Below are positions 845-61,980 of a stretch of 64,000 nt of DNA, in pieces. How positions within the stretch are numbered: the first letter of the stretch is position 1; each line of letters opens with the position of its first letter. Below the pieces are notes generated by a model. It did not search any database and was not told the origin of the DNA. It worked only from the letters and a program-made list of their open reading frames with translations. This DNA is from Rufibacter sp. DG15C. GTDB taxonomy: Bacteria; Bacteroidota; Bacteroidia; Cytophagales; Hymenobacteraceae. A program made the translations under genes and the position numbers. The stretch is from positions 1,426,001-1,490,000 of the forward strand of contig NZ_CP010776.1 of NCBI RefSeq assembly GCF_001577755.1, read 5' to 3'.

Positions 845-882
845 CGTTTTTGGGCTATTTTTCAGGAAACAGGCTAAAAACG
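845..882. repeat. PR palindrome copy 1
   Basis: Imperfect copy between two genes on the + strand, just after the prfA terminator. The left arm reads CGTTTTTGGGCTATTTT and the right arm AAACAGGCTAAAAACG. Read through in frame it adds a false N-terminus (FGLFFRKQAKN) to the next gene. Confidence 0.85.
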
Positions 883-893
883 AAATCACACCT

Positions 894-1295
894 ATGAGAA
901 AGTCCATTTTTACCAATACTGTCTTTTACTGGACAATAATTTCAATCCTTAGCGCACTATTTCTGTGGAATCTAGTCTTAGTGGTTGGCTACTCGCAGTT
1001 TCTTGGCCTTCTTCCAATAGCAATTCAAGGTACCATACTTGCTTTGGTTGTTAAAAAACATGAATATGCTAGAAGTGGGATAAAAATCTGGGCCATTCTA
1101 TTTCTTATTGTAAGCTCGAGCCTAAAGCTTGTAGGAGGCTTATTTGGGTATGTAGCAGGGTCTGTAACTGGCAACTTGGAGTCCTACAGTCTTAGTGCTG
1201 TATCTATTTTAGTTGGAATTGCGATTGTCTACTACACTAACAAAACAGTTAGAATAGACATAATAACAGATGAACCAGAAGCCAGCTACACATAG
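894..1295 (+). CDS. Hypothetical membrane protein, about four TM segments
   Basis: I do not recognise this 133-residue protein. It shows about four hydrophobic segments (near residues 10-35, 38-55, 62-85 and 95-112) and a short charged C-terminus, so an inner-membrane location is likely. The ATG at 894 (MRKSIFTNTVF) is chosen because the longer frame from 825 only adds residues encoded by PR copy 1. The gene is AT-rich compared with prfA and the lipoprotein gene after it, which may indicate recent acquisition. The following gene starts 20 bp downstream on the same strand. Confidence 0.6.
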   Translation: MRKSIFTNTVFYWTIISILSALFLWNLVLVVGYSQFLGLLPIAIQGTILALVVKKHEYARSGIKIWAILFLIVSSSLKLVGGLFGYVAGSVTGNLESYSLSAVSILVGIAIVYYTNKTVRIDIITDEPEASYT

Positions 1296-1315
1296 TCTGA
1301 TATACACTTAGTAAC

Positions 1316-2728
1316 ATGAATAATCGCCTACCAATAATTGCCTTTTCTCCACTTCGCACCATGGTGCAGGGTTTGGCTATGGTGGCGTTTGCGGTATGGA
1401 GCATTGTTGCCTGCACCCCCCAGGACGAGGAATTCACCCCAAACGCCAGCGCCATCCTCAAGTTTGAGGCAGACACGGTGGTGTTTGACACAGTGTTTAC
1501 CGAGGTGGGCAGCGTGACCAAGCGCCTGAAGGTCTACAACAGCAACCAAAACGCGGTGCGCATCTCTGAGATTAAGGTGGCGGGGATGGGTGCATCACCT
1601 TTTAAGGTGTTTGTGAACGGGAGGCCGGGGCCCTTGCTGGAAAGCGTGGAAGTGCGGGGCGGCGACAGCCTCTTGCTTTTGGTCAAAGCCACCATCAACC
1701 CTACCGCAGACAACCAGCCGTTTCTGGTGAGAGACTCCATCCAGTTCCTAACCAACGGAAACCAACAGCAGGTAATTCTGGAGGCCTACGGGCAGAACGC
1801 GGCCTTCTACAGAAAATACACGGCGGGCTGCGCCGAAACCTGGACGGCCAGCAAGGCGCATGTCATTTATGACTCAGTGACGGTGCCGGCAGGCTGTACC
1901 TTAATTATTGAAAAAGGCGCCCAGATTCATCTGCACAAGAACGCCAAGCTCAAAGTGCTAGGCACGCTTCTAGTACGCGGCGAAGAGAAAGAGCGGGTGC
2001 GCTTTCAGCAGGTTCGGCAGGAAGAAGACTATAGAAACGCCCCCGGCCAATGGCAGGGACTAGAGTTTGGCCCTACCAGCACGGGCAATAAAATGCAGTA
2101 CACCGAGATTAAGAACGCGGTCACGGGCATCTTGCTCACCGCCCAGGGAAACCAAATCCCCTCCATCACGCTGGAACAGACCTTCATTAAAACCATGCTC
2201 CAGTCGGGGGTCTTGAGCCACGGCGGAAATGTGAACCTCATCAACAGCATCATCACCAACTGCGGCGAGTATGCGCTGGCAGGCTTGGGCGGCGGACAGT
2301 ATAAAATCTACTTCAGCACGCTGGCCAATTACGCGAATGATTTCGTGCGCTTTACTCCGTCCTTTGTATTTCAGGAGGATTTGGGGAATACCAGAAAGGC
2401 CCGGTATCAAGTAGAAGTAGTCAATAGCATCCTCTGGGGAAGGCAGGACGAGGAACTCCAGTTCGGACCGGCCACGTTAGGCTCTACCAGAGCCATTCGG
2501 CATTCCTTTGTGAAGACGGTGGCCTACGCCGCTGAACTGGCAGGCAACAACAACCAAATCAACGTGGACCCCAAGTTCAGGGACGCGCCCAAGTTTGATT
2601 TCCAGATCATCAAGCTCTCACCGGCCAACAAAGCGGGCACCCCGCTGGCGGGCATTTTGCTGGATTATGAGGCCAAAGAGCGCGACAAGACCACGCCAGA
2701 CGTAGGCGCCTTAGAAGTTATAGACTAA
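1316..2728 (+). CDS. Surface or periplasmic lipoprotein with right-handed beta-helix region
   Basis: This 470-residue protein starts with a hydrophobic signal ending in a lipobox (SIVACTPQ, Cys at about residue 33), so it is probably lipid-anchored. After an N-terminal beta-sandwich-like part (residues 40-160) comes a segment rich in short repeated beta-strand turns and Asn/Gly, ending in SPANKAGTPL and TTPDVGALE. That ending is characteristic of Bacteroidota parallel beta-helix proteins of the choice-of-anchor Q type. The substrate is unknown; carbohydrate or cell-surface binding is a guess. An internal ATG at 1361 (MVQGLAMVAF) is a possible alternative start. YjbQ follows after 9 bp, suggesting co-transcription. 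Confidence 0.72.
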   Translation: MNNRLPIIAFSPLRTMVQGLAMVAFAVWSIVACTPQDEEFTPNASAILKFEADTVVFDTVFTEVGSVTKRLKVYNSNQNAVRISEIKVAGMGASPFKVFVNGRPGPLLESVEVRGGDSLLLLVKATINPTADNQPFLVRDSIQFLTNGNQQQVILEAYGQNAAFYRKYTAGCAETWTASKAHVIYDSVTVPAGCTLIIEKGAQIHLHKNAKLKVLGTLLVRGEEKERVRFQQVRQEEDYRNAPGQWQGLEFGPTSTGNKMQYTEIKNAVTGILLTAQGNQIPSITLEQTFIKTMLQSGVLSHGGNVNLINSIITNCGEYALAGLGGGQYKIYFSTLANYANDFVRFTPSFVFQEDLGNTRKARYQVEVVNSILWGRQDEELQFGPATLGSTRAIRHSFVKTVAYAAELAGNNNQINVDPKFRDAPKFDFQIIKLSPANKAGTPLAGILLDYEAKERDKTTPDVGALEVID

Positions 2729-2737
2729 TCCCTACCC

Positions 2738-3160
2738 ATGAAGTGGTTTCAGAAATCCATTAGGCTCCCGGCCGTTAAGCGCGGCTTTCATCTCATCACC
2801 GACCTGCTGGAGGCGCAGCTTCCCGAACTTGAGGATTTTGACATAGGTTTGGCGCATGTGTTCATTCAGCACACCTCGGCGGGGCTTTGCATCAATGAGA
2901 ACGCAGACCCTACCGTGCGGCATGACTTTGAACAGCATTTCAATAAGATGGTGCCCGAAAACGCGCCGTATTATCGGCACACCTTAGAAGGACCCGATGA
3001 CATGCCCGCGCACATCAAAGCCGCTTTACTGGGTTCCTCTGTCACCATTCCCATCACCAACGGCCGTCTGGCCTTAGGCACTTGGCAAGGCGTTTACCTG
3101 TGTGAGCACCGGGACCACGGCGGCAAGAGAACAGTGGTAGTGACCTTGCAGGGACAGTAA
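2738..3160 (+). CDS. YjbQ family protein (UPF0047, secondary thiamine-phosphate synthase type)
   Basis: This 140-residue cytoplasmic protein matches the YjbQ family along its whole length. Visible signatures are QHTSAGLCINENADP, a DMPAHIKAALLG stretch and LGTWQGVYLCEHRD, with conserved His and Glu residues forming the putative active site. YjbQ proteins have weak thiamine-phosphate synthase activity in vitro; the true cellular substrate is not settled. The gene lies 9 bp after the beta-helix lipoprotein and ends 2 bp from the stop of a convergent gene, leaving no room for a separate terminator. Confidence 0.92.
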   Translation: MKWFQKSIRLPAVKRGFHLITDLLEAQLPELEDFDIGLAHVFIQHTSAGLCINENADPTVRHDFEQHFNKMVPENAPYYRHTLEGPDDMPAHIKAALLGSSVTIPITNGRLALGTWQGVYLCEHRDHGGKRTVVVTLQGQ

Positions 3161-3162
3161 TT

Positions 3163-3750
3163 CTAGCGCACTATCTCACCCTGCACCCCGTAACGCTCAG
3201 AGTTGGAGAACAGCAGCGTCTGTGACTCATCCAGGCTGTAGGCTTGCAATGCCGGTGTGGCTCCAGGCTGGGCCTTTACCACCAATTGCTTGTGCGTAGT
3301 GAACAGGAAATTCTTCTGGAGCATGGTGGCCTTAAACTGCACCAATCGCCCCTGCTCGTCTAAAACATAAGTAGCTTCCTTGACGATGGCGTCTGCGTCT
3401 TCTTTGGCGGTGTAGTGGTGCACCTGCTGGCCTTGGGCGTTGGTGGTCTTCTCAATCGCAAAGAGCCCAAGCAAGGCGGGCTTGTTCAGGTCTGCATCGG
3501 CGAAGGTGCCTAACTCTTGCGGCCAGTCTATGCTTTGCAGCACCTTGGTCTCTTTCACCTGCCCGTCCTCCAGCACTGTCTTCTTTACCTTGGCATTGCT
3601 TTGGCTTAAAGCCTGAGCTTCTCGGTCCAGAAACCCGACCAAGTCAAACGCCTGGCCCGTAGAGCGCGCGGCTTTGGGCATGGGCTGGTCCTGGCAAGAA
3701 ACCATGGACAAAGAAACAGCAAGGCCAAGCAGAAGAGAGGATTTCCTCAT
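3163..3750 (-). CDS. Hypothetical lipoprotein
   Basis: The product (195 residues) begins with a signal peptide ending in the lipobox SMVSCQ (Cys at about residue 19). The mature part is mixed alpha/beta with segments such as VKETKVLQSIDWPQEL and FLFTTHKQLVVKAQPG, and matches no family I can name. An ATG start at 3750 follows no visible ribosome-binding site, as usual in this phylum. It converges on YjbQ with a 2-bp gap. PR copy 2 lies upstream, between it and gpmI. Confidence 0.65.
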   Translation of the reverse strand: MRKSSLLLGLAVSLSMVSCQDQPMPKAARSTGQAFDLVGFLDREAQALSQSNAKVKKTVLEDGQVKETKVLQSIDWPQELGTFADADLNKPALLGLFAIEKTTNAQGQQVHHYTAKEDADAIVKEATYVLDEQGRLVQFKATMLQKNFLFTTHKQLVVKAQPGATPALQAYSLDESQTLLFSNSERYGVQGEIVR

Positions 3751-3795
3751 AGAGGTAGGAATAAAAGATAAAGGCTGAATGCTCCGTGAAACAAG

Positions 3796-3843
3796 ATTTC
3801 TGTTTTTGGCCTCTTTTCTGGGAAAGAGGCCAAAAACAGAAAT
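3796..3843. repeat. PR palindrome copy 2, extended arms
   Basis: The arms extend beyond the usual core: 3796-3816 pairs perfectly with 3823-3843 (21 bp). Relative to consensus this copy has CTGTTTTT instead of CCGTTTTT and CTCTTT instead of CTGTTT, each with the matching change in the other arm. It lies between two minus-strand genes. Confidence 0.9.
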
Positions 3844-3869
3844 ACGCGTTCCGGTGTGGGTAAGATGCT

Positions 3870-5405
3870 TTAGACTAAATGCGGCGTGAGCAGAGACGTG
3901 CCCGTCATGTCGGCGGGGGCTTGCAGGCCCATGAGCGCCAAGATGGTGGGGGCAATGTCGCCCAGCTTCCCGTCCAAGAGTTCGCCTTTGTAGGCTTCGT
4001 CAGCCAGGATGAACGGCACCAGGTTGGTGGTGTGCGCTGTGTTAGGCGTGCCGTCTGGGTTGCGCATGATGTCGGCGTTGCCATGGTCCGCGATGATGAT
4101 GCTGGCGTAGCCATGGGCCAAGGCGGCAGTCACTACGGCTTGTGCGCATTGGTCAACGGTCTCCACGGCTTTGATGGCCGCTTCAAATACGCCCGTGTGG
4201 CCTACCATGTCTGGGTTGGCAAAGTTAAGGCAGATAAAATCAGCGCTCTCAGCATTAATCTCTGGTACAATGGCGTCCCTTATGTCAAAGGCACTCATCT
4301 CAGGCTGCAGGTCATAAGTAGCCACCTTGGGTGAAGGGCACATGAGGCGTTTCTCCCCGTTGAACGGCAGCTCGCGGCCACCCGAGAAGAAGAAGGTCAC
4401 GTGCGGGTATTTCTCCGTTTCGGCTATGCGTATCTGGGTTTTACCGGCGTGCTCTAGGACTTCGCCCAGAGTATTGGCAAGGTTGTCTTTGTCAAAGATG
4501 GCCTGAACACCCACAAAGGTATCGTCATAGTTGGTGAGCGTGTAGTAGCGCAAGGACAAGGGGTACATGTCCTGCTCCGGGAACTCGCGCTGGGTGAGGG
4601 CCTGGGTAATCTCGCGGCCGCGGTCCGTCCTGAAGTTAAAGCAAATCACCACGTCGCCTTCTTTGATTTTAGCCATGGCCTCGCCGTTCTCATTCAGGCA
4701 CACAATGGGCTGCAGGAACTCATCGGTCACGGCATTGTCATAGGACTCCTGTACGGCTTCGCGCCAGTTCACAGAGGCCCTTCCGTTGCCGTGCACCATC
4801 AGGTCATAGGCCAACTTCACGCGCTCCCAGCGGTTGTCGCGGTCCATGGCGTAGTAGCGGCCAATGATGGAGGCGATTTTACCAGTACTTTTATCTAAGT
4901 GGTTTTGTAAATCAGTCAAATAGTCCAGGCCGCCTTTGGGGTCGGTGTCCCGGCCATCGGTGAAGGCATGGATGAAGACATCTGACAAACCTTGTTCATG
5001 GGCAAGAGAGCAAAGGCCTTTCAAATGGTTGATATGCGAGTGCACGCCGCCTTCAGAGACCAATCCAATCAAATGCACGGGCTTGCCATTCTCACGGGCG
5101 TAGGTGAAGGCATCCTGCAAGACAGGGTTCTGGCCAAGGGTCTTCTCTCTGATGGCTACGTTGATGCGCACCAAGTCCTGGTACACCACGCGGCCGGCGC
5201 CCAGGTTCATGTGGCCCACTTCAGAGTTTCCCATCTGGCCTTCGGGCAGGCCCACGGCCTCTCCGGACGCCTCCAGGCGGGCATGCGGAAAACGCTCAAA
5301 CATTGAATCTATAAAGGGCGTGTGGGCGTGCGCAATGGCAGACACGGTTGGGTCGGTGCCCAATCCCCATCCGTCCAGAATCATTAAAAGTACCTTCTTG
5401 CTCAT
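3870..5405 (-). CDS. gpmI: 2,3-bisphosphoglycerate-independent phosphoglycerate mutase
   Basis: Interconverts 3- and 2-phosphoglycerate in glycolysis through a phosphoserine intermediate with two Mn2+ ions. The 511-residue length is normal. The metal ligand Asp11 lies in LMILDGWGLG and the nucleophile Ser61 in QMGNSEVGHMNLGAGR. Further signatures are FTDGRDTDPKGG, NFRTDRGREITQ, FFFSGGRE, HTGVFEAAIKAVE and IIADHGNADIM. The ATG at 5405 (MSKKVLL) is chosen over a TTG fifteen bases upstream, because the latter overlaps a promoter-like TATCTTTA. The gene appears monocistronic, bounded by PR copy 2 downstream and a divergent gene upstream. Confidence 0.97.
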   Translation of the reverse strand: MSKKVLLMILDGWGLGTDPTVSAIAHAHTPFIDSMFERFPHARLEASGEAVGLPEGQMGNSEVGHMNLGAGRVVYQDLVRINVAIREKTLGQNPVLQDAFTYARENGKPVHLIGLVSEGGVHSHINHLKGLCSLAHEQGLSDVFIHAFTDGRDTDPKGGLDYLTDLQNHLDKSTGKIASIIGRYYAMDRDNRWERVKLAYDLMVHGNGRASVNWREAVQESYDNAVTDEFLQPIVCLNENGEAMAKIKEGDVVICFNFRTDRGREITQALTQREFPEQDMYPLSLRYYTLTNYDDTFVGVQAIFDKDNLANTLGEVLEHAGKTQIRIAETEKYPHVTFFFSGGRELPFNGEKRLMCPSPKVATYDLQPEMSAFDIRDAIVPEINAESADFICLNFANPDMVGHTGVFEAAIKAVETVDQCAQAVVTAALAHGYASIIIADHGNADIMRNPDGTPNTAHTTNLVPFILADEAYKGELLDGKLGDIAPTILALMGLQAPADMTGTSLLTPHLV

Positions 5406-5469
5406 GATGTAAAGATACAAGACCTAGGTGAAAAAGCGTGGCTTCCTATCTGTTTCTATAGATTTCATG

Positions 5470-8017: not shown

Positions 8018-8067
8018 AATACCCGTTTTTGGCTTGTTTTCTGTAAAACAGGCCAAAAACGGGTATT
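8018..8067. repeat. PR palindrome copy 3, extended arms
   Basis: The arms extend outward as AATACCCG and CGGGTATT, matching each other but not the flanks of other copies. The core has one G-T mismatch (GGCTTG against CAGGCC). It lies between two + strand lipoprotein genes. Confidence 0.9.
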
Positions 8068-9956: not shown

Positions 9957-9994
9957 CGTTTTTGGGCTGATTCCCAGAAAAGAGGCTAAAAACG
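9957..9994. repeat. PR palindrome copy 4
   Basis: Begins 3 bp after the ZIP transporter stop codon. The left arm has GGGCTG and the right arm AGGCTAAAAACG, so two positions do not pair. It lies between + strand genes. Confidence 0.85.
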
Positions 9995-10886: not shown

Positions 10887-11405
10887 ATGATTGAACTCTC
10901 CCAACTAGCCGATAAACACCTTCCGTACTTTCTGGAGTGGATCAATGACGAAGAAGTGATCAAATACTCTTTGGCGGCGTTTCATGGGCTTTCGTCTAAG
11001 GCAGAGATCACTGAGTGGTTTGAGGGAGTCCTAGAGGATACGGAGAGCGTGAACCTGGCCATTATTGACTCAGAGACGCAGGAATGCTTGGGCTATGCGG
11101 CTTTAAGCAACATGTCTGAGGCCAGCGACGGCGGCGAGTTCTTCATCTTCATTGGGGACAAAGCGTCTTGGGGCAAAGGCATTGGCACCGAGGTGACCAA
11201 GCAGATGATTGAGAAAGGCTTCACAGAACAAGACCTGCATTGGATTATACTGGTGGTGTCCAAGTCCAATGAAGGCGGCGTAAAAGCCTACCAGCGTGCA
11301 GGCTTCACCATAGAGACTATGTTCAGACAACGGTCCATGGAAGACGGCAAATTGCATGATACGTTCCTCATGTCCATTAGAAGAGAAGAGCAGGAGGCCG
11401 CCTAA
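10887..11405 (+). CDS. GNAT family N-acetyltransferase (RimJ/RimL-like)
   Basis: The 172-residue cytoplasmic protein has the GNAT order of elements: LAIIDSETQECLGYAAL (strands 2-3), FFIFIGDKASWGKGIGTEV with the acetyl-CoA pyrophosphate-binding loop WGKGIGTE (about residues 92-99), and KSNEGGVKAYQRAGFTIE near the C-terminus. It resembles the RimJ/RimL-type Acetyltransf_3 group that modifies protein N-termini or small amines. The actual substrate is not evident. The 116-bp gap before it shows no recognised feature. Confidence 0.88.
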   Translation: MIELSQLADKHLPYFLEWINDEEVIKYSLAAFHGLSSKAEITEWFEGVLEDTESVNLAIIDSETQECLGYAALSNMSEASDGGEFFIFIGDKASWGKGIGTEVTKQMIEKGFTEQDLHWIILVVSKSNEGGVKAYQRAGFTIETMFRQRSMEDGKLHDTFLMSIRREEQEAA

Positions 11406-11411
11406 GTTTCT

Positions 11412-11450
11412 CGTTTTTAGCCTGTTTCTTAAAAATAAAGCCAAAATTTT
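11412..11450. repeat. PR palindrome copy 5, degenerate
   Basis: The left arm is intact (CGTTTTTAGCCTGTTT) but the right arm is decayed (AAAATAAAGCCAAAAT). It lies 7 bp after the acetyltransferase stop, in an AT-rich stretch. Confidence 0.75.
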
Positions 11451-12995: not shown

Positions 12996-13017
12996 AAGAG
13001 AAACAATTTTGCATGTA

Positions 13018-13067
13018 GGAGCCCGTTTTCGGTCTGTTTTCTAGAAAACAGACCGAAAACGGGCTCC
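13018..13067. repeat. PR palindrome copy 6, perfect 50-bp palindrome
   Basis: Every base of 13018-13042 pairs with 13043-13067. Within the core it departs from consensus at several positions (TTTTCGGTCTG), all compensated on the other arm. The flanks GGAGCC and GGCTCC are specific to this copy. It lies between convergent genes and could act as a terminator in both directions. Confidence 0.95.
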
Positions 13068-13128
13068 TTGTTTTGGATATTACAGTCTTACTTGATCTTA
13101 AGTGGACAAATTTTTATCAGCAATCCCC

Positions 13129-14572: not shown

Positions 14573-14620
14573 AAATCCGTTTTTGGCCTGTTTTGCGCAA
14601 AACAGGCCAAAAACGGATTT
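14573..14620. repeat. PR palindrome copy 7, perfect 48-bp palindrome
   Basis: 14573-14596 is fully complementary to 14597-14620, with central GCGC and outer flanks AAATCC and GGATTT. It lies between two minus-strand genes, 24 bp from the metalloprotease stop codon. Confidence 0.95.
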
Positions 14621-17027: not shown

Positions 17028-17064
17028 CGTTTTTTGCCTCTTTCCCGAGAAATAGGCAAAAACG
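17028..17064. repeat. PR palindrome copy 8
   Basis: Arms CGTTTTTTGCCTCTTT and AATAGGCAAAAACG with a few mismatches. It ends 3 bp before the stop codon of the YciI-like gene on the minus strand. Confidence 0.82.
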
Positions 17065-17067
17065 GAT

Positions 17068-20556: not shown

Positions 20557-20598
20557 AAAACAGCCCGAAGACGACACCAAGTGTTTTCGGGCTGTTTT
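20557..20598 (+). terminator. Terminator hairpin whose right arm is also the left arm of PR copy 9
   Basis: AAAACAGCCCGAA (20557-20569) pairs perfectly with TTCGGGCTGTTTT (20586-20598), and an inner ACAC/GTGT stem can extend the loop. The right arm is simultaneously the left arm of the PR palindrome, so two mutually exclusive hairpins are possible. It follows the acetyltransferase gene and faces a convergent gene. Confidence 0.82.
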
Positions 20599-20619
20599 CA
20601 TGAAAAGAGGCCAAAAACG
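20583..20619. repeat. PR palindrome copy 9, fused to terminator
   Basis: The left arm GTTTTCGGGCTGTTTT is shared with the preceding terminator stem. The right arm GAAAAGAGGCCAAAAACG is closer to the PR consensus than the left. Confidence 0.82.
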
Positions 20620-21898: not shown

Positions 21899-21936
21899 CG
21901 TTTTTGGCCTGTTTCCACCAAAACAAGCCAAAAACG
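21899..21936. repeat. PR palindrome copy 10
   Basis: Arms CGTTTTTGGCCTGTTT and AAACAAGCCAAAAACG (one C-A mismatch). It starts 7 bp after the TonB/MORN gene and ends 5 bp before the stop codon of the convergent MFS gene. Confidence 0.9.
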
Positions 21937-24487: not shown

Positions 24488-24535
24488 AAAACGGAACCGC
24501 CTCCTTGAAGTATTTCAAGGAGGCGGTTCCGTTTT
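24488..24535 (+). terminator. 22-bp hairpin joined to PR copy 11
   Basis: 24488-24509 pairs perfectly with 24514-24535 around a GTAT loop. The right arm ends CCGTTTT, which is the beginning of the PR left arm, so the PR T-tract serves as the terminator U-tract. It lies at the junction of two convergent genes. Confidence 0.85.
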
Positions 24536-24568
24536 TGGCTTAGTTTCGCCAAAACAGGTCAAAAACGG
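24529..24568. repeat. PR palindrome copy 11, fused to terminator
   Basis: Left arm CCGTTTTTGGCTTAGTTT, right arm AAAACAGGTCAAAAACGG. Its first seven bases belong to the preceding hairpin stem and it ends 1 bp before the stop codon of the TonB receptor gene. Confidence 0.88.
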
Positions 24569-27460: not shown

Positions 27461-27580
27461 TTACAACAAGTTAATTCACAAATATAACAGCGTCTTCCAA
27501 TTTACAATACCAATGCCCTATTCTACCGAAAGGATCCAATTCCATGATGCTAAAATGAAATACAGATACGTACATGATTT

Positions 27581-27617
27581 AGTTTTGACCTATTTCCTGG
27601 AAAACAAGCCAAAAACG
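27581..27617. repeat. PR palindrome copy 12, degenerate left arm
   Basis: The right arm GAAAACAAGCCAAAAACG is well conserved; the left arm (AGTTTTGACCTATTTC) has drifted. It lies in the 829-bp gap between the divergent His-rich gene and htpG. Confidence 0.8.
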
Positions 27618-28100: not shown

Positions 28101-28137
28101 CATTTTCCGCCTAATTCCCAGAAAACAAGCCAAAATG
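28101..28137. repeat. PR palindrome copy 13, degenerate
   Basis: Both outer ends are decayed (CATTTTCCGCCTAATT and GAAAACAAGCCAAAATG). It lies about 150 bp upstream of htpG. Confidence 0.7.
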
Positions 28138-28289
28138 AAATCTTAGTCAGCTTAACCTTTCAAATTGGCATTGTATAAACCCAAACAAACTCCTTCTTCC
28201 TGCCATCCTGTCACTAATCATGCTCTGGAACAGCTTTTGCCAAGCCTCTTCTACAAAAAGCAACACACATCATTTTATAGATATAGGAA

Positions 28290-31228: not shown

Positions 31229-31266
31229 CGTTTTTAGTCTATTTCCGCCAAAACAAGCCAAAAAAG
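31229..31266. repeat. PR palindrome copy 14
   Basis: Left arm CGTTTTTAGTCTATTT, right arm AAACAAGCCAAAAAAGG. It ends 3 bp before the stop codon of the minus-strand serine hydrolase. Confidence 0.82.
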
Positions 31267-33424: not shown

Positions 33425-33470
33425 AATCCGTTTTTGGCCTGATTCTTAGGAAACAGGCCAAAAACGGATC
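33425..33470. repeat. PR palindrome copy 15, extended arms
   Basis: Flanks ATCCG and CGGAT are symmetric outside a near-consensus core with one mismatch in the centre. It lies between two minus-strand genes. Confidence 0.9.
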
Positions 33471-34506: not shown

Positions 34507-35097
34507 TTAAGAAATGGCCTGCTGGTAGAGGTCCAGCCCTTCAGACTTGATGGTGCTGAAGAACTCGGGTGTGATGCCCAGATAAGAAGCGATGTGGTAC
34601 TGCGGAATACGCTGGCTCAGGTCAGGGAACTTGAGGAGGAAATCGCGGTAATTTTCGGCGGCGGTCTGGGTCATGCCCGACAGCATGCGCTTCTTAAACG
34701 CGAAGTAGCCGTTTTGGAGCAGTTTCCGGTAAAACAGGTTAAAAACGGGATGTTGTTGCGTGAGGGCCTCAAAGGCATTCACGTTGATTTGTACGTACTG
34801 CGTGGCCTCCAAGGCTTGAATGGAAAGCAACGCCGGTTTATGGAAGGCCACATCACTTATCCAGTACCGCTCCACGGCAAACTCCAAGTTCACCTCTTTG
34901 CCGCTCTGGTCAATGATAAACGACCGCAGACAGCCGCTCTGCACAAAATACAGGTAGTGGTTCTGTTCCCCGGTGCGCAACAGAAACTCCTTCTTCTTCG
35001 CCTCCTTGGCCTCACAGATAGCCAGAAAAGCCTCCTCTTCCTCTGGCGTGAGGGAGACATGCTGGTGCAAGGCGATTAGAATAAGGTCTTGTGCCAA
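34507..35097 (-). CDS. Crp/Fnr family transcriptional regulator
   Basis: The 196-residue regulator has an N-terminal cyclic-nucleotide-binding-type beta roll (KKKEFLLRTGEQNHYLYFVQ, GCLRSFIIDQSGKEVNLEFA, about residues 34-75). A dimer helix follows, then a C-terminal helix-turn-helix (RIPQYHIASYLGITPEFFSTI, about residues 163-183). The PETAA nucleotide signature is absent, as in most Bacteroidota members, so the effector is unknown. The start is a TTG at 35097; there is no ATG that preserves the N-terminal helix. The coding sequence contains a PR-like stretch at 34709-34748. Confidence 0.88.
   Translation of the reverse strand: MAQDLILIALHQHVSLTPEEEEAFLAICEAKEAKKKEFLLRTGEQNHYLYFVQSGCLRSFIIDQSGKEVNLEFAVERYWISDVAFHKPALLSIQALEATQYVQINVNAFEALTQQHPVFNLFYRKLLQNGYFAFKKRMLSGMTQTAAENYRDFLLKFPDLSQRIPQYHIASYLGITPEFFSTIKSEGLDLYQQAIS
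34709..34748 (-). repeat. PR-like sequence inside the Crp-like gene
   Basis: Read on the minus strand, 31 of 40 bases match the PR consensus without gaps (left arm CCGTTTTTAACCTGTTTT). It encodes VFNLFYRKLLQNG in the regulator, close to the VFGLFSGKQAKNG that a consensus PR would encode in the same frame. No length change relative to homologues is apparent, so it may be coincidence or partial sequence conversion. Confidence 0.45.
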
Positions 35098-38477: not shown

Positions 38478-38524
38478 TACGCGTTTTTGGCCTGTTTTCT
38501 AAGAATTAGACCAAAAACGCATAT
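38478..38524. repeat. PR palindrome copy 16, divergent gap
   Basis: Flanks ATACGC and GCATAT are nearly symmetric; the inner right arm has decayed (AATTAGACC). It lies between divergent genes, where neither gene needs a terminator. Confidence 0.85.
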
Positions 38525-39279: not shown

Positions 39280-39317
39280 CGTTTTCGGCCTGTTTTACCC
39301 AAAACAGGCCGAAAACG
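39280..39317. repeat. PR palindrome copy 17, perfect arms
   Basis: Arms CGTTTTCGGCCTGTTTT and AAAACAGGCCGAAAACG are fully complementary. The change T to C at the sixth base of the left arm is matched by A to G in the right arm. It lies between lemA and the first TPM gene. Confidence 0.95.
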
Positions 39318-40659: not shown

Positions 40660-40703
40660 AAGCGTTTTTGGCTTGTTTTCCAGGAAACAGGCCGAAAACG
40701 CTT
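40660..40703. repeat. PR palindrome copy 18, extended arms
   Basis: Outer bases AAGCG and CGCTT match each other. The core has two G-T type mismatches (left GGCTTG, right CAGGCCG). It follows the TPM operon. Confidence 0.88.
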
Positions 40704-42694: not shown

Positions 42695-42732
42695 CGTTTT
42701 AAGCCTACTTTCTGGAAAACAAGCCAAAAACG
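42695..42732. repeat. PR palindrome copy 19, divergent gap
   Basis: Left arm CGTTTTAAGCCTACTTT is degenerate; the right arm GAAAACAAGCCAAAAACG is near consensus. It lies between the divergent fbaA and helicase genes. Confidence 0.82.
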
Positions 42733-45778: not shown

Positions 45779-45816
45779 CGTTTTTGGGCTGGTTTGTGGG
45801 AAGGAGGTCAAAAACG
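45779..45816. repeat. PR palindrome copy 20, degenerate centre
   Basis: Begins 3 bp after the helicase stop. Left arm CGTTTTTGGGCTGGTTT, right arm AAGGAGGTCAAAAACG; several positions no longer pair. Confidence 0.8.
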
Positions 45817-47302: not shown

Positions 47303-47340
47303 CGATTTTAGCTTATTTCCTGGAAAACAGGCCAAAAACG
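47303..47340. repeat. PR palindrome copy 21
   Basis: Left arm CGATTTTAGCTTATTTC is degenerate; right arm GAAAACAGGCCAAAAACG is consensus. It lies between + strand genes, 7 bp after the MepB-like stop. Confidence 0.84.
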
Positions 47341-47493: not shown

Positions 47494-48108
47494 ATGAGAA
47501 ATTCTATCCTTACCATCATCTTTCTCTTCACACTCACCGTTGCCCAAGCCAAAGAAATCACCGCGCACATCATCTTTGAGAACCGAACCGCAAAACAGCT
47601 CACGGCGGGTAAGTTCTACATCAAGGAACTTGAGAAAACGTTAGACATCACCTCCACAGAAACCTTCACGGTGACCTTGCCGGAGAAAGGGAAATACAGC
47701 TTCGGGTTTAGGGCAGATGAGTTTGAGGCCTATACCATGTACCCCGCCAGAATCACGGAGAATAACAATATCATCACCATCCGGTTAGAGGCCAAATACT
47801 CAAAAATTGTCCCTAAGATAGAAATGCTGACTCCGGTCATAACCCACTTGACTAATGAGCAGCTAGACGCGTTGGTTACACGGGGAGAAGTCAATTTTAT
47901 CTTCCACTGCCTCTATAAACTTAACTTAGACTTCACGGCGTTCCGAGCGACGTATGGCGTGGGGTACACAGCCAAAAACTGCGTCATTGACCCCGTTACT
48001 TTAAAGTATACTTCTGAGCATAATAAAAGGCTAGAGGAATACCTAACCCAGAAGTACGGCGAGGGCTGGAAGCAGGACTTGCCGGCGCATCCATTGGGAA
48101 TTAAATAG
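47494..48108 (+). CDS. Secreted hypothetical protein
   Basis: The product (204 residues) has a signal peptide (about residues 4-20, ending AQAKE). The mature part starts with a beta-sandwich-like region (ITAHIIFENRTAKQLTAGKFYIKELEKTLDITSTETFTVTLPEKGKYSF). The C-terminal half is more helical (LTNEQLDALVTRGEVNFIFHCLYKLNLDFTAFRATYG) and contains two Cys. It resembles no family I can name. The ATG at 47494 is chosen because it starts the signal; the stop overlaps PR copy 22 by one base. Confidence 0.65.
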   Translation: MRNSILTIIFLFTLTVAQAKEITAHIIFENRTAKQLTAGKFYIKELEKTLDITSTETFTVTLPEKGKYSFGFRADEFEAYTMYPARITENNNIITIRLEAKYSKIVPKIEMLTPVITHLTNEQLDALVTRGEVNFIFHCLYKLNLDFTAFRATYGVGYTAKNCVIDPVTLKYTSEHNKRLEEYLTQKYGEGWKQDLPAHPLGIK

Positions 48109-48145
48109 CGTTTCGGCTTGATTTCCAGAAAACAGGCCAAAAACG
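48109..48145. repeat. PR palindrome copy 22, fused to terminator
   Basis: Left arm CGTTTCGGCTTGATTTC is partly decayed, right arm GAAAACAGGCCAAAAACG is consensus. In the minus direction it directly follows the hairpin at 48142-48186. Confidence 0.85.
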
Positions 48146-48186
48146 CAGAAGCCCCGTCCAGTAGAAATGGGCGGGGCTTCTGCGTT
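48142..48186 (-). terminator. Terminator hairpin of the lipoprotein gene, joined to PR copy 22
   Basis: A 15-bp stem (AACGCAGAAGCCCCG 48142-48156 with CGGGGCTTCTGCGTT 48172-48186) is followed, on the minus strand, by the T-rich arm of PR copy 22 (GTTTTTGGCC). It lies 17 bp after the minus-strand stop codon at 48203. Confidence 0.85.
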
Positions 48187-49076: not shown

Positions 49077-49114
49077 CGTTTTTGGCCTGATTTCCAGAAA
49101 ACAGCCTAAAAACG
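49077..49114. repeat. PR palindrome copy 23
   Basis: Arms CGTTTTTGGCCTGATTTC and GAAAACAGCCTAAAAACG; two positions do not pair. It separates the two CsgG-like paralogues, which share strand. The rest of this 290-bp gap holds nothing recognised. Confidence 0.87.
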
Positions 49115-50405: not shown

Positions 50406-50443
50406 CGTTTTTAGCCTATTTTCTGGAAAACAACCCAAAAGCG
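50406..50443. repeat. PR palindrome copy 24
   Basis: Left arm CGTTTTTAGCCTATTTTC, right arm GAAAACAACCCAAAAGCG. It begins 7 bp after the SRPBCC stop and lies 88 bp before crtD. Confidence 0.83.
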
Positions 50444-55020: not shown

Positions 55021-55058
55021 CGTTTTTAGCCTGCTTTCTGAGAAATAGCCCAAAAACG
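55021..55058. repeat. PR palindrome copy 25
   Basis: Left arm CGTTTTTAGCCTGCTTTC, right arm GAAATAGCCCAAAAACG. It lies between the TetR-like gene and the convergent DUF6952 gene, close to the DnaA-box pair. Confidence 0.83.
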
Positions 55059-56549: not shown

Positions 56550-56637
56550 TTGGTTGTTAGATTGCTAGAGACTCCCTTTGAGACAAAGATGGGATGCAAG
56601 TTGTTCATTCACAACGTAACGTGTTTGCCGAGATTCT

Positions 56638-56675
56638 GTTTTTGCCCTGATTCCTGGAAAACAGCCCAAAAACGA
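56638..56675. repeat. PR palindrome copy 26
   Basis: Left arm CTGTTTTTGCCCTGATTC, right arm GGAAAACAGCCCAAAAACG. It lies in the gap between divergent genes, about 90 bp upstream of the lipoprotein gene at 56549. The 544-bp gap 56550-57093 holds this copy, a minus-strand terminator, PR copy 27 and the promoter of the small membrane gene. Confidence 0.82.
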
Positions 56676-56712: not shown

Positions 56713-56932
56713 TTTCCACACACAACGTTAAAATTTACTCTATCTCTAGCTTTTCACCGCCTACAGATAACAGCTGCGTTGAAAGCCAACCTAGCGGCGG
56801 CCCCAGCACATATCCATTAGTAGCTAAGATCCAGGCTTTCTTACAAGCTGGCAGGGAGAAAAGTTAACGTTGGTAAAAAGAGGAAAGCGGGCACAAAGCC
56901 GATGCCCGAAAAAGCATGACTTCGATTTTAGG

Positions 56933-56968
56933 CTATCGTTTTTGGCCAAAACAGGCCAAAAACGATAG
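56933..56968. repeat. PR palindrome copy 27, shortened and nested
   Basis: CTATCGTTTTTGGCC (56933-56947) pairs perfectly with GGCCAAAAACGATAG (56954-56968) around AAAACA. The inner part of the left arm is missing. Just before it stands CGATTTTAGGCTAT, which looks like an older, degenerate left arm of the same repeat, so the present left arm may be a fresh copy of the right arm. Confidence 0.85.
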
Positions 56969-57013
56969 CTGCTTGCAAGAAGAAGGAGGGATGTGAAAAT
57001 TTGGAAGCCGGCC

Positions 57014-57258: not shown

Positions 57259-57284
57259 GTTCTGCTGAGCTGGCATTACGGCGC

Positions 57285-57674: not shown

Positions 57675-57683
57675 AGACACCAT

Positions 57684-57727: not shown

Positions 57728-57740
57728 AAATGAGATAAAC

Positions 57741-58613
57741 TTATTGCGTTGGACCAGAATCTACCCGTGACTCAATGGTGGCCTGCACCGTTGAGGACAC
57801 GTTAGACAAGATGTTATAGCCCGTAGCGGCTTCAATGGCGTCTACCGTGGTGCGGTAAGAGCCCCATGTGCTGCTGATGCTGGTGGTGTTGGGGGTGTTC
57901 ACGGCAATCACGCGGGTGCTGGTAGTCACGCGGGCGGCGTCACCGGTACCGTTAGGCAATACCACAATCACCTTCCAGATGCGGTTAGGCACGGTCACTT
58001 TGCCGCCGGCAATGGTTTCTTTGTAACCAGCGCTGCCGGTTCCGCCCACGCCGTAGCTGCCCATGATGATGTAAAGCTCGTTTCCGGCGTTGATCAAGGT
58101 ACGGCAGTAGTTCTCCAAGCCCGCCCAAGTCTGTTGGTTGTTAGGACCCGCCTGCGGAATCATGTTTGACATCAAGAACGTGGCCGAGTTATCCGTCACG
58201 GTCAAGGTGCGGTCAGCAGAAGGGCAGTTATGGCCCCGGTCAAAGCCGCTTCCGGTGTAGTCAGAAGACGTTACTTTGTAGAAAGCCGCTGGCAATGACG
58301 TGTCTGCCCTAAAGTCATCCTGGCGCGGCGTGCTGCCTACCCAAGCGCTGCTCAAATGCCAGCTTACCCAGTTGGGCGTGCCGCGGTAGCTGTTGTAGGA
58401 CATCACGTACTGTGATTTGCTCACCAGGTAATTGCTGTAGCTGGTGCCTGCACTGCTGGGATTGCCCATAGTCAGGTGTGAGTCTTTGGTGGCGGTAGCA
58501 TCTTCAGTCCCAGTCACACTGGGGGATTGATTGGGCTCTACGTCTTCTGTAGAACAAGACACACTAAAGCCTACCAGCAAAGCCAGTACCAACGGACGAT
58601 AAAATTTTTTCAT
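57741..58613 (-). CDS. DNA/RNA non-specific endonuclease (NucA-like lipoprotein)
   Basis: Sugar-nonspecific nuclease of the beta-beta-alpha-metal family, 290 residues. A lipoprotein signal ends GFSVSCST (Cys20), so it is exported and anchored. The active site is DRGHNCPSADRT (residues 125-136, DRGH with the general-base His), and the metal Asn is in FLMSNMIPQAGPNNQQTWAG. A low-complexity stretch (21-50) links anchor and enzyme. It probably degrades extracellular or periplasmic DNA and RNA. The start at 58613 (MKKFYRPLV) is used, because the frame running to 59015 is an artefact passing through PR copy 28. Confidence 0.93.
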   Translation of the reverse strand: MKKFYRPLVLALLVGFSVSCSTEDVEPNQSPSVTGTEDATATKDSHLTMGNPSSAGTSYSNYLVSKSQYVMSYNSYRGTPNWVSWHLSSAWVGSTPRQDDFRADTSLPAAFYKVTSSDYTGSGFDRGHNCPSADRTLTVTDNSATFLMSNMIPQAGPNNQQTWAGLENYCRTLINAGNELYIIMGSYGVGGTGSAGYKETIAGGKVTVPNRIWKVIVVLPNGTGDAARVTTSTRVIAVNTPNTTSISSTWGSYRTTVDAIEAATGYNILSNVSSTVQATIESRVDSGPTQ

Positions 58614-58745
58614 GGATAGGGGTTTGGGGTTGGTTGAAAGTTCTAGAAATATAAGCCCTAACCGTCTAATACAAAACAAAATATAGCCAAACCCTATATT
58701 ATTTTTTTGGCAATCGATTTCCCTAAAACCTTCTTCTAGGATTTT

Positions 58746-58783
58746 CGTTTTTGCCCTCTTTTCTGGAAAGTAGGCCAAAAACG
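58746..58783. repeat. PR palindrome copy 28, divergent gap
   Basis: Left arm CGTTTTTGCCCTCTTTTC, right arm GGAAAGTAGGCCAAAAACG, with outer A/T flanks roughly symmetric. It lies between the divergent nuclease and GHL10 genes; the remainder of the 249-bp gap is AT-rich without another feature. Confidence 0.85.
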
Positions 58784-58862
58784 AAATGGCGTGAAAGAAA
58801 GGTTGGAAGAAACCTAAAAAGGCGGTTACTTGCCTGCTTTGCTGCTTACTTCCTTTTAGCTT

Positions 58863-60398
58863 ATGCTTTTCTTTCCCCGTCCCCAATCGCTGCTCTTCAT
58901 CGTCATTTTTTGTTGGTTCTATTCCTTTCAACTGCACGCCCAAATAGCTCCCAAACGCGAGTTCAGGGGCGTCTGGATTGCCACCGTGTCCAACATTGAC
59001 TGGCCCAGCCAGCAAGGGCTTTCGCCGGTTACGCAGATGGAGGAGTTCAGGTACATTCTAGACGAGCACCAGAAAAACGGCATCAACGCCCTGGTGGTAC
59101 AGGTACGGCCCACCACAGACGCGCTCTACCGCAGCAGCAGGGAGCTGTGGTCACACTGGCTGTCGGGTAAGCAGGGCGAGGCCCCCAATCCGCCGTATGA
59201 CCCGTTGGCGTTCCAGATAGAGGAGGCGCACAAGCGGGGCATGGAGTTTCATGCCTGGTTCAATCCGTATCGGGCCATCCATGACACCATCAGCGCCAAC
59301 ATCGCGCCCAACCACATCACCAAGACCCGGCCCGAGTGGTTTGTCACCTACGCCGGCAAGAAATACTTTAAGCCCGGCCTGCCCGAAGTACGCGAATACA
59401 TTGTGGGCATCATCCTGGACGTGGTGCAGCGCTATGACGTAGACGCCATTCACTTTGACGACTATTTCTACCCATACCCCACCAGAGACACGTTCCCAGA
59501 CGACGACGACTTCGCTCAATACGGTGCCGGTTTTGTCAACAAGGATGATTGGCGCCGCCATAACGTAGACGAGGTGATACGCGTCTTGTCTGACAGCATC
59601 AAAGCGGTCAAGCCCCATGTCAAGTTTGGCATCAGTCCGTTTGGCATCTGGCGAAACAAGAAGGAAGACCCGCGAGGCTCAGACACCAACGGCCTCACCA
59701 ACTACGGCCAACTCTACGCCGACATCAGGGGCTGGCTGGAGAAAGGCTGGATTGACTACAACGTGCCGCAGCTGTATTTCAACATCGGCTACCAAGTGGC
59801 AGACTACGCCAAGCTGCTGGACTGGTGGAGCAAAAACAACTTCGGGAAGCATCTCTACATTGGTCAAGGTACCTACCGCGTGAACACAGACGCCCGGGTC
59901 AAAGAATGGTACAACCCTTTGGAGACCGGCAACCAGCTGCGCCTCAACCGCCAGACGCCCAACGTGCAGGGGAGCGTGTTCTTCAGCTCCAAGTCTGTCA
60001 TGAGCAACCCATTGGGCGTGCAGGACACGCTCAGAAAAGACTTCTACAAATACCCCGCGCTGGTGCCTGCCATGCCTTGGCTGGATGATGTGGCCCCGCT
60101 GGCCCCTACAGAACTAAAAGCTACCTCCACGCTAGACGGCATCCATTTGGCCTGGAAAGCACCGGCCAAAGCGCCAGACGGGGAGATGGCTCGCTATTAT
60201 GTGGTGTACCGCACGCCCAAAGGCACAGATATTGACGTGGAAAACCCGGCGCACATCTTGAGAATCCACCATGGCGGGCCTGCTTATCTGGACCAATCCG
60301 CGGTTTCTGGCCAGCGCTATACCTACCTAGTCACGGCTGTGGACCGGTTGCACAATGAAAGCAGGCCCTCAGAAACGGTGAAAGCCAAGCGAAAGTAA
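58863..60398 (+). CDS. Glycosyl hydrolase-like family 10 protein (GHL10) with Fn3 domain
   Basis: The product (511 residues) is exported: signal peptide about residues 8-26 (LLFIVIFCWFYSFQLHAQ). A TIM-barrel GHL10 domain (about residues 32-400) shows KREFRGVWIATVSNIDWPS, QKNGINALVVQVRPTTDALY, EFHAWFNPYRA and VDAIHFDDYFYPYP, the family hallmarks, with acidic residues in the last motif as candidate catalytic or ligand residues. A fibronectin-III-like domain (PTELKATSTLDGIHLAWKAP ... YVVYRT) ends it. The substrate is unknown; cell-wall glycans are a guess for this group. Confidence 0.92.
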   Translation: MLFFPRPQSLLFIVIFCWFYSFQLHAQIAPKREFRGVWIATVSNIDWPSQQGLSPVTQMEEFRYILDEHQKNGINALVVQVRPTTDALYRSSRELWSHWLSGKQGEAPNPPYDPLAFQIEEAHKRGMEFHAWFNPYRAIHDTISANIAPNHITKTRPEWFVTYAGKKYFKPGLPEVREYIVGIILDVVQRYDVDAIHFDDYFYPYPTRDTFPDDDDFAQYGAGFVNKDDWRRHNVDEVIRVLSDSIKAVKPHVKFGISPFGIWRNKKEDPRGSDTNGLTNYGQLYADIRGWLEKGWIDYNVPQLYFNIGYQVADYAKLLDWWSKNNFGKHLYIGQGTYRVNTDARVKEWYNPLETGNQLRLNRQTPNVQGSVFFSSKSVMSNPLGVQDTLRKDFYKYPALVPAMPWLDDVAPLAPTELKATSTLDGIHLAWKAPAKAPDGEMARYYVVYRTPKGTDIDVENPAHILRIHHGGPAYLDQSAVSGQRYTYLVTAVDRLHNESRPSETVKAKRK

Positions 60399-60423
60399 AG
60401 GCAACAGAGGAAGTTCTATCAGC

Positions 60424-60461
60424 CGTTTTTGGGCTGTTTTCCAGAAAATAAGCCAAAAACG
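60424..60461. repeat. PR palindrome copy 29
   Basis: Left arm CGTTTTTGGGCTGTTTTC, right arm GAAAATAAGCCAAAAACG; the flanking CC and GG also match. It lies 25 bp after the GHL10 stop, before fumC on the same strand. Confidence 0.87.
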
Positions 60462-60499
60462 GAAGTCTTCAATCGCGCGCGCTTTTTATAATTATTGCG

Positions 60500-60507
60500 T
60501 AGTTTTG
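60500..60507 (+). promoter_or_regulatory. Candidate -7 box for fumC
   Basis: TAGTTTTG (TAnnTTTG) lies 35 bp before the fumC start. No matching -33 element is seen at 19-21 bp. Confidence 0.45.
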
Positions 60508-60542
60508 AGGCATCTACAGTATTCACTTTATTCTTATAAGAC

Positions 60543-61940
60543 ATGAGCATACGCATAGAGAAAGACACCATGGGTCCGGTAGAGGTACCCGCAGATAAAT
60601 ACTGGGGCGCCCAGACGCAACGCTCTAAAGAAAACTTCACCATTGGCGGCCAGTTGATGCCCACCGAGGTGATTGAAGCCTTCGCCATCCTGAAGAAGGC
60701 CGCCGCTTACACCAACGCTGAACTAGGCGTTCTATCTCAGGACAAAGCCGAAATCATTGGCCGCGTATGCGATGAAATCTTGGCTGGTGACTTAGCCGAC
60801 CAGTTCCCGCTGGTGGTGTGGCAGACCGGTTCTGGCACGCAGAGCAACATGAACGTGAACGAAGTGGTGGCCAACCGCGCACACGTATTGCTGGGCGGCG
60901 ACCTGATGGACGAGAAAAAGCAGATTCACCCGAATGATGACGTGAACAAGTCCCAGTCCTCTAATGACACTTTCCCGACGGCCATGCACATTGCCGGCTA
61001 CAGAATTGTGGCTGAGCACACCCTGCCTATGATTCAGAAGCTGCGCGACACGCTGCATGCCAAGTCACAGGAGTACATGAACGTGGTAAAGATTGGCCGT
61101 ACGCACTTAATGGATGCCACGCCGTTGACGCTGGGCCAAGAGTTGTCGGGTTACGTGTCGCAGCTGGACCACGGCATGCGCGCCCTTAGAAATACCCTAG
61201 ACCACCTCAGCGAACTAGCCTTGGGCGGTTCTGCCGTAGGAACTGGTTTGAATACCCCGCAAGGCTACGCTGAATTAGTAGCAAAGAAAATCTCTGAGTT
61301 CTCTGGCTTGCCCTTGAAAACCGCTGAGAACAAGTTTGAGTCTTTGGCCGCCCATGACGCCATTGTGGAAACCTCTGGTGCCTTGAAGCAGATTGCCGTG
61401 AGCTTGATGAAGATTGCCAATGACATTCGTTTGCTGGCCTCTGGACCACGTTCAGGTATTGGTGAAATCATCATCCCAGAAAATGAGCCGGGTTCTTCTA
61501 TCATGCCGGGCAAAGTAAACCCAACCCAGGCCGAGGCCATGACTATGGTCTGCGCGCAGGTGATTGGCAATGACGTGGCCATCTCGGTGGGCGGCATGAA
61601 CGGTCACTTTGAGCTGAACGTGTTCAAGCCGGTGATGATCTTCAACCTATTGATGAGCGCCCGTTTATTAGGTGATGCCTGTGATTCTTTTGACAAGCAC
61701 TGCGCCGTGGGCATTGAGCCGAACTACGAGGTGATCAAGCGCCAGCTGGAGAACTCTCTGATGCTGGTAACTGCTTTGAACCCGCACGTAGGGTATGACA
61801 ACGCCGCCAAGATTGCCAAGAAAGCCCACAAAGAAGGCACTACCCTTCGTCAGGCCGCTTTGGACTTGGGTCTGTTAACAGATGAGCAGTTCACGGAGTG
61901 GGTGAGACCAGAAGACATGATTGGATCATTGAAAGGATAA
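60543..61940 (+). CDS. fumC: Class II fumarate hydratase
   Basis: Converts fumarate to malate in the TCA cycle without an iron-sulfur cluster, as a homotetramer (465 residues). Motifs: [24 protein letters not shown] at the start, [40 protein letters not shown], and the signature [16 protein letters not shown] with the mobile catalytic Ser loop, followed by [12 protein letters not shown]. The ATG at 60543 fits homologues. Terminators in both orientations lie downstream. Confidence 0.97.
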
Positions 61941-61942
61941 GC

Positions 61943-61980
61943 CGTTTTTGGCCTCTTTTGGCAAAAACAGGCCAAAAACG
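61943..61980. repeat. PR palindrome copy 30, next to a terminator
   Basis: Left arm CGTTTTTGGCCTCTTTTG, right arm CAAAAACAGGCCAAAAACG. It starts 3 bp after fumC. The terminator hairpin of the convergent side abuts it within 2 bp. Confidence 0.88.

Follow-up and report, generated by a model that had tools for sequence, protein, structure and literature searches.

A 64,000-nt stretch of the Rufibacter sp. DG15C chromosome (the window; positions 1426001-1490000 of contig NZ_CP010776.1, the single contig of the 4.14-Mb genome, G000) carries a dense family of one short palindrome, here called PR, which lies almost entirely between genes. PR is a 36-letter mirror-image site with the core GTTTnnGGnCTnnTTTnnnnAAAnnAGnCCnnAAAC. 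Its consensus ends are C-GTTT and AAAC-G, and the bases beyond are not strongly conserved; pooled arms share the constant core GTTT..GG.CT..TTT, and the remaining positions carry species-specific bases. A scan with a 17+4+17 pattern, scored as matches among the 34 arm positions, finds 30 copies with at least 24/34 and one variant with 23/34, in agreement with the 30 copies of a ~38-bp inverted repeat claimed in an earlier note on the window. No match at 22 or above occurs in three first-order Markov controls of the window, and the half-site pattern is found 53 times against 1.3 expected. As that note also held, the family has no known name: Rfam gives 0 matches in the window above gathering score, none for PR, and a description was not found among the matches listed in searches of open-licence full texts. 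The family points to a hitherto unrecognised system by which gene-unit borders are marked.

PR is abundant throughout the genome and ends at the border of the genus. In a sample of 59 stretches of 20 kb plus the window (1.244 Mb; ~30% of the genome read directly, genome-wide counts being pattern searches), 465 copies were found (0.37/kb, ~1550 per genome by extrapolation), with 0 in mononucleotide-shuffled sample sequence. Genome-wide, 429 copies lie within 3 mismatches of the consensus and 1229 match a degenerate skeleton with at most 3/24 mismatches (reversed controls: 0 in both cases); ~1200-1550 copies in 4.14 Mb replace the more than two thousand in 5 Mb projected earlier. By the same skeleton threshold, all 16 Rufibacter genomes searched hold 254-1984 copies, with 0 in each reversed control; two genomes other than that of the window exceed 1800, the top count being 1984. 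A further 104 genomes of the family Hymenobacteraceae, outside the genus, give 0-4 matches each (13 genomes with 1-4, 18 in total; reversed pattern 4). With at most one mismatch, the skeleton is present in 4/4 sampled genomes of the genus versus 0/287 other genomes of the order. The window consensus matches in 15/16 genus genomes and in 0/134 other-genus genomes of the family; the one genus genome without such a match, G001, has 473 copies by skeleton. Among 84,980 species, exact copies occur in Rufibacter records only (24 stretches, from R. immobilis, R. ruber, R. sediminis and R. sp. XAAS-G3-1; the collection may omit the window genome). The wider distribution in related Hymenobacteraceae that the earlier note proposed to check was not found: PR is limited to one genus, with an abrupt border.

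The two lowest counts are those of G015 (254) and G001 (473), and in the few copies fetched from them (8 and 5) the consensus seems looser, as if the PR system were eroding there. Of 2.9 million viral contigs, one matches a PR skeleton exactly; the copy in viral contig L224 (1275-1310) is of the GGGCC type and lies directly 3' of a terminator-like hairpin.

Placement relative to genes is strongly patterned. Genes were called with an in-house hexamer caller whose start sites are approximate. The 465 sampled copies comprise 248 in tandem, 127 in convergent and 48 in divergent gaps, 28 that overlap a called gene by at least 12 nt and 14 at stretch ends; the last two groups are omitted from the context tests, which cover 423 copies. 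The other 437 of the 465 have no such overlap, though 81% of the sample is called coding. The earlier statement that all copies lie between genes is therefore nearly right, the exceptions being these 28; in the window, one copy lies within a coding frame. The window copies divide into 14 tandem, 9 convergent and 6 divergent besides the coding one, rather than the 16, 7 and 7 first counted. Since PR extends beyond the window and is depleted in genes, neither of the outcomes named as adverse to the family, confinement to the window or equal scatter inside coding regions, was found.

Occupancy depends on orientation and gap length. Among gaps of at least 45 nt, PR is present in 114/145 convergent, 232/474 tandem and 47/148 divergent ones. 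Convergent gaps of at least 80 nt have it in 102/119 cases (86%; the count takes in gaps of 400 nt and more), tandem gaps of at least 120 nt in 196/318 (62%) and divergent gaps of at least 200 nt in 43/110 (39%); tandem gaps below 45 nt have it in 1/133. Distance from the stop codon is at most 15 nt for 145 of the 423 copies and 16-60 nt for 141 (286 within 60 nt). Of the copies in tandem gaps, 59 are found 0-9 nt past the upstream stop versus ~22 under uniform placement, and a second excess is found at 20-29 nt (37 vs 17). Thirty gaps hold two copies; in several, one lies right past a stop and the other right before the next start or stop. This placement at borders suggests a two-sided boundary.

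One alternative is that PR is the operator of one global transcription factor with ordinary promoter action, and the copy 5' of the fumarase gene speaks for it. This copy has a match in 10 of the 11 congeners with both flanking genes (eight with at most 4/24 mismatches, two with 5-6; none in G001) and keeps 117-122 nt to the aligned start, while the gap, and with it the distance to the upstream gene, ranges from 136 to 707 nt. The 286 copies within 60 nt past a stop, many of them in convergent gaps without a promoter for the flanking genes, argue against this explanation, which is distinctly unlikely.

Single PR copies largely keep their position from species to species. The window genome was compared with its congener G009 over gaps of 45-1200 nt (up to 1800 nt in G009) between neighbouring genes whose proteins match at 55% identity or more over at least 60% of their length; pairing was restricted to copies no more than 60 nt apart. 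In 138 orthologous gaps, 68 have a copy in both genomes, 5 are discordant and 65 have none (both/discordant/neither: convergent 24/0/3, tandem 33/4/45, divergent 11/1/17). Concordance is 133/138; in 2000 permutations that kept orientation and length classes, it averaged 88.4 and never exceeded 103. A G009 partner lies within 60 nt for 75 of the 76 window-genome copies in shared gaps, and the offset agrees within 5 nt in 70 of the 75 pairs, where random placement predicts 9%. In these pairs, identity is 97-100% at ten T/A core positions (3-5, 14-15, 22-23 and 32-34 of 0-37), 60-92% at the remaining PR positions and 44-66% in the flanks. The more distant congener G006 (median protein identity 79%; comparison at ≥50% identity with both genes adjacent) shares 26 gaps with the window genome, with 7 discordant and 24 without a copy among 57; against G009 the figures are 46, 13 and 37 among 96.

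The consensus itself drifts in concert. In G006 the base preceding GG differs from that of the window genome and G009, and sites with T/A in the source genome carry G/A and C/T on both sides in G006 in 16/22 cases (from the window genome) and 35/44 (from G009). Left and right arms have equal base preferences in five species (G003 with 16 copies only), and the consensus shifts alike in both.

These data bear directly on the parallel with REP, BIME and RAYT-linked mobile elements drawn earlier, which they do not support. Spread by a transposase as a REP/REPIN-like family would agree with the genus restriction, high copy number and intergenic bias of PR, and RAYT-like genes (PF01797) are present in 15/15 other congeners, 1-6 in each. 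The window genome as a whole, despite its 1229 copies, has no PF01797 match at E<=0.001, as the earlier note had said of RAYTs in the window. Around 30 RAYT-like congener loci, 44 PR matches in 97 kb (0.45/kb) are no denser than elsewhere; PR lies within 500 nt at 15 of the 30, and several loci are flanked by short palindromes unrelated to PR. Orthologous sites with matching offsets, position-specific constraint and the near absence of positional turnover between the two species also oppose mobility. Five sampled stretches hold 0-2 copies per 20 kb, and four of them are low in GC with 1-2 copies each (L059 and L085, 0.42; L035, 0.46; L045, 0.47), as would be expected of newly acquired DNA; these four also count against mobility. 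The mobile reading was rejected on the RAYT search, the surroundings of the RAYT loci and site orthology, and is very improbable.

Whether PR acts as a hairpin or as a DNA dyad can be read from covariation between its arms. Right arms were permuted among copies and core pairs counted with the selected copy set kept; copies were chosen by match score, which may slightly bias arm correlations. Covariation is found in the 141 copies at 16-60 nt past a stop (2020 core pairs vs 1926.0, sd 10.4; flank pairs 573 vs 328.7). The 282 copies outside this zone show 3631 core pairs against 3653.5 expected (sd 15.5), and the same holds for copies at ≤15 nt (n=145; 1902 vs 1900.3), copies >60 nt from a stop (1141 vs 1155.8) and divergent copies (588 vs 599.2). 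In G009, G006, G014 and the pooled other congeners, the arms are near-independent over the whole core. Without covariation outside the terminator zone, most copies therefore behave as protein-style dyads and not as hairpins; there they combine two-fold symmetry with base-specific constraint on each arm independent of pairing, as an operator does. On covariation tests across distance classes and match quality, a hairpin-only reading was rejected.

An RNA hairpin, serving as bidirectional terminator or as mRNA 3'-end protector, is nevertheless what the 16-60 nt class resembles. Among copies 26-40 nt past the stop, 27% have an uninterrupted helix of at least 19 bp; the share is 12% at 16-25 nt, 5% at 41-60 nt, 3% at ≤15 nt, 2% for divergent copies and 0% for those farther than 60 nt. 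A stem extension of at least 3 with at least four T in the next 8 nt marks 30% of 178 gene ends at 16-60 nt versus 3% of 152 at ≤15 nt, and the best-matching copies covary in every sequence set. As a general account the hairpin has to leave aside the 282 copies without group covariation, 145 of them within 15 nt past a stop, and the 48/465 divergent copies, which bears out the earlier remark that a simple terminator role does not cover the family. Separate hairpins are also often present at PR ends. With terminators counted in gaps of 45-600 nt (best hairpin per strand only), convergent ends with PR have a non-PR hairpin in 117/212 cases and the PR stem as hairpin in 37 more (without PR, a hairpin in 35/50); tandem ends with PR have a non-PR hairpin in 66/205 and the PR stem in 35/205 (without PR, 64/218). 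PR thus mostly accompanies terminators and partly is one. Terminator-like hairpins adjoin PR on both strands, using its T-tract, in 28/106 convergent gaps, a count from a finder that demands a T-tail and favours such places. Without that demand, and with hairpin distances counted in gaps of 45-700 nt, 63 perfect stems of at least 9 bp cluster at PR edges (for example, 12 vs 2.4 expected at 8-11 nt and 9 vs 1.4 at 5-6-nt edge overlap). The data suggest one DNA site underlying all copies, with terminator stems built on some of them where a terminator belongs. The hairpin explanation of the family is given a small probability.

Taken together, the evolution of PR resembles that of protein-binding sites more than that of mobile repeats or RNA hairpins. 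It has about an even chance of being the two-fold-symmetric recognition site of a putative sequence-specific Rufibacter protein that would act as a boundary at transcription-unit borders. Binding and boundary role are proposed from the site, its density and symmetry, its border placement, genus limit and orthology, and the base-specific constraint and arm behaviour inside and outside the terminator zone; independent arms under strict per-base constraint are what a symmetric protein that reads the DNA directly would be expected to leave. Such a protein, probably a homodimer or a dimer of dimers, would occupy 254 to 1984 sites per genome at unit borders: past stops, in the gaps where convergent units meet and 5' of promoter regions. 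Once bound, it might serve as a two-sided boundary that halts read-through and antisense transcription, pins the supercoils driven by transcription, or does both. Of the copies at 16-60 nt past a stop, a third of the total, some have the symmetric site worked into a terminator stem as well; other copies sometimes share their T-tract with an adjoining hairpin. A bolder and more tentative version is that Rufibacter evolved a bacterial insulator: a putative abundant genus-specific protein on the 36-bp dyad at most unit borders would isolate neighbours from read-through, antisense transcription and supercoil spread, its recognition being re-tuned in concert over hundreds to >1000 orthologous sites between species.

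Type II topoisomerases are symmetric enzymes that cut with a 4-bp stagger, and they provide the strongest rival to the boundary protein. PR might be a genus-specific strong binding or cleavage site for gyrase or topoisomerase IV, which would remove supercoils at unit ends with no new protein needed. The convergent > tandem > divergent gradient is what twin-domain supercoiling predicts, the 36-bp dyad has a 4-bp centre, its arms are independent, and gyrase is said in one account to target E. coli REPs (PMC3733652). Gyrase is universal, yet PR stops abruptly where the genus ends and congeners differ in its consensus; divergent gaps are conserved as well (11 shared, 1 discordant). Outside the arms, the only A+T peaks are near offsets 2-4 and 9-14, and the profile is flat from there on. 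Wrapping around gyrase was rejected, as the A+T profile inspected by eye has no extended periodic pattern. The topoisomerase explanation is improbable, if less so than the other alternatives.

Several observations weigh against the boundary protein. No candidate PR-binding protein was found, no gene-presence screen having been made, and position is the sole basis of the putative boundary role. The gene caller is an in-house one, 28 of the 465 copies overlap called genes, and one 20-kb stretch of ordinary GC, L050 (0.51), holds no copy. All 423 copies together exceed the permutations (5651 core pairs vs 5578; 0/1000 reach it), an excess that comes from the 141 covarying copies at 16-60 nt. Outside the zone, flanks pair above chance (718 vs 648.5). 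In each of the six sequence sets, the variable positions of copies with 0-1 skeleton mismatches show covariation (z 2.2-5.6), and pairing therefore matters for some copies; in the window genome this covariation belongs mainly to the terminator-zone class, with a weak signal elsewhere (z 2.1). Covariation at skeleton offset 5 reaches z above 2 in all but one of five species sets, and compensatory double changes between orthologues number 20 against a shuffled mean of 9.9 (max 22). Separate terminators are also somewhat rarer at convergent ends with PR than without, by the counts above, and PR may therefore partly replace terminators.

The least probable explanation is a signal for DNA uptake, methylation or replication orientation (DUS, HIP1 or KOPS-like). 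High copy number and palindromy are compatible with it; the avoidance of genes by 437/465 copies argues against it, and a 36-bp degenerate dyad would be unlike a short methylase site. Strand bias and chromosomal position argue against it too: the TG/CA centre shows no significant replication-strand bias (TG 109 vs CA 136, p=0.10) or transcription-strand bias (p=0.31), and no ori-ter gradient was found. The centre (positions 18-19 of 0-37) is TG, CA or TA in 303/423 copies; CG is rare at this step (12/423), though C is frequent at the first position and G at the second.

Among known systems, roadblock termination is reportedly exemplified by Reb1 in yeast. According to a review, RNA polymerase can be stalled and terminated by proteins bound to DNA, LacI in E. 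coli being one example (PMC10310618). The mechanism proposed for PR is the same, a sequence-specific bound protein stopping RNA polymerase, but for PR that protein is putative; a genome-wide bacterial roadblock system was not found among the matches listed in the literature searches. Chromosome-organising sites such as matS, Noc sites and parS are likewise dyad-symmetric and dispersed on the chromosome; PR is far more numerous, stands at gene-unit borders and shows no ori-ter gradient. Intrinsic bidirectional terminators share its position past stops and between convergent genes, and the covarying stems of its 16-60 nt class, but not the behaviour of the other two thirds or the frequent separate hairpin alongside. 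REP families are described as palindromes that end in GTAG, and are then often linked to RAYTs, or in CGTC, and are then said to be without transposase (PMC3733652). Like PR, the REP, BIME and REPIN elements in that account are many-copy palindromes of 20-40 bp, mostly intergenic, in tandem and convergent gaps (PMC3733652); PR differs in several ways: it has neither the GTAG nor the CGTC end, a RAYT was not detected in the window genome, its copies are orthologous from one species to another and its arms are independent outside the terminator zone. HIP1 of cyanobacteria, the octamer GCGATCGC, has been discussed with orphan methyltransferases (PMC4390886). It too is an over-represented palindrome tied to a lineage; PR, by contrast, stands at gene borders and is a degenerate dyad of 36 bp.

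Intergenic palindromes in high copy number are commonly taken as mobile REPs or as hairpins; for PR both readings are testable and mostly fail. The orthology of single sites, the independence of the arms in most copies and the concerted drift of the consensus suggest that many hundreds of unit borders are read by a protein. If this is true, bacteria would have an equivalent of the boundary or roadblock factors of eukaryotes, and with PR the long-standing question of what REP-like elements do at gene ends becomes directly testable.

Table 1. PR copies and adjoining hairpins in the window, in window coordinates. Score, matches among 34 arm positions; stop +n, n nt past a stop codon.
Feature	Positions	Score	Strand	Context	Remarks
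PR copy	845..882	30/34		tandem
PR copy	3801..3838	29/34		tandem, stop +31 of - strand gene
PR copy	8024..8061	33/34		tandem, stop +25	extended stem; G009 copy at equal offset
PR copy	9957..9994	29/34		tandem, stop +2	G009 copy
PR copy	11412..11449	26/34		tandem, stop +6	none called in orthologous G009 gap
PR copy	13024..13061	30/34		convergent	26-bp arms perfect, 13017-13068
PR copy	14578..14615	34/34		tandem, stop +28	both arms altered together in G009
PR copy	17028..17065	26/34		tandem, stop +2	G009 copy
PR copy	20582..20619	30/34		convergent	G009 and G006 copies
PR copy	21899..21936	32/34		convergent, each stop 5-6 nt away
Intrinsic-terminator-like hairpin	24488..24535		+		T-tail is left arm of PR copy 24530; matching G009 hairpin (L091 1051-1099)
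PR copy	24530..24567	30/34		convergent, stop +2 of - strand gene	adjoins terminator-like hairpin
PR copy	27580..27617	27/34		divergent	offset 168, also in G009
PR copy	28101..28138	24/34		divergent	offset 689 (G009: 681)
PR copy	31229..31266	28/34		convergent, stop +3	G009 copy
PR copy	33429..33466	31/34		tandem, stop +30
PR-like dyad	34710..34747	27/34		within coding frame 34507-35097 (-)	37/38 bases equal in G009, protein 94% identical
PR copy	38482..38519	30/34		divergent	offset 153 (G009: 155)
PR copy	39280..39317	32/34		tandem	G009 and G006 copies
PR copy	40663..40700	31/34		convergent	G009 and G006 copies
PR copy	42695..42732	29/34		divergent	G009 copy
PR copy	45779..45816	28/34		tandem, stop +2	G009 match just 22/34
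PR copy	47303..47340	29/34		tandem, stop +6	G009 copy at equal offset
PR copy	48108..48145	28/34		convergent	1-nt overlap with last base of stop codon
Terminator-like hairpin	48142..48186		-		adjoins PR copy 48108; PR arm is - strand T-tail
PR copy	49077..49114	31/34		tandem
PR copy	50406..50443	29/34		tandem, stop +6	G009 and G006 copies
PR copy	55021..55058	29/34		convergent
PR copy	56637..56674	29/34		divergent	offset 88 (G009: 89)
PR variant	56932..56969 (scan match 56927)	23/34			perfect 16-bp inverted repeat without inner TGTTTT arm
PR copy	58746..58783	30/34		divergent	offset 133 (G009: 130)
PR copy	60424..60461	31/34		tandem, 5' of fumarase gene
PR copy	61943..61980	33/34		convergent, fumarase stop +2	match in 4/4 congeners with both flanking genes, one weak (5/24 mismatches)
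Terminator-like hairpin	61981..62012				directly beside PR copy 61943; followed by TTTTTT (+ strand) and by PR arm (- strand)

Other palindromes were seen in the congeners. At four loci of RAYT-like Y1 transposases (L141, L142, L156 and L159), a REP-like palindrome unrelated to PR, GTGGTTCGGGATTGGTAAATCCCGAACAGC or its complement, is present, and a second type, ATGGCGCGGAAGTTACTTCCGTGCCTT with close forms, is found at L136, L138, L157 and L158. At L148 of G011, seven PR matches with at most 4 mismatches surround the RAYT-like gene within ~2 kb (351-2337), far above the usual density. A further palindrome, AAACCTGTGAGGTCT and its complement, occurs three times in 20 kb at L129 of G013 (2008-2040, 4217-4249 and 10896-10928).

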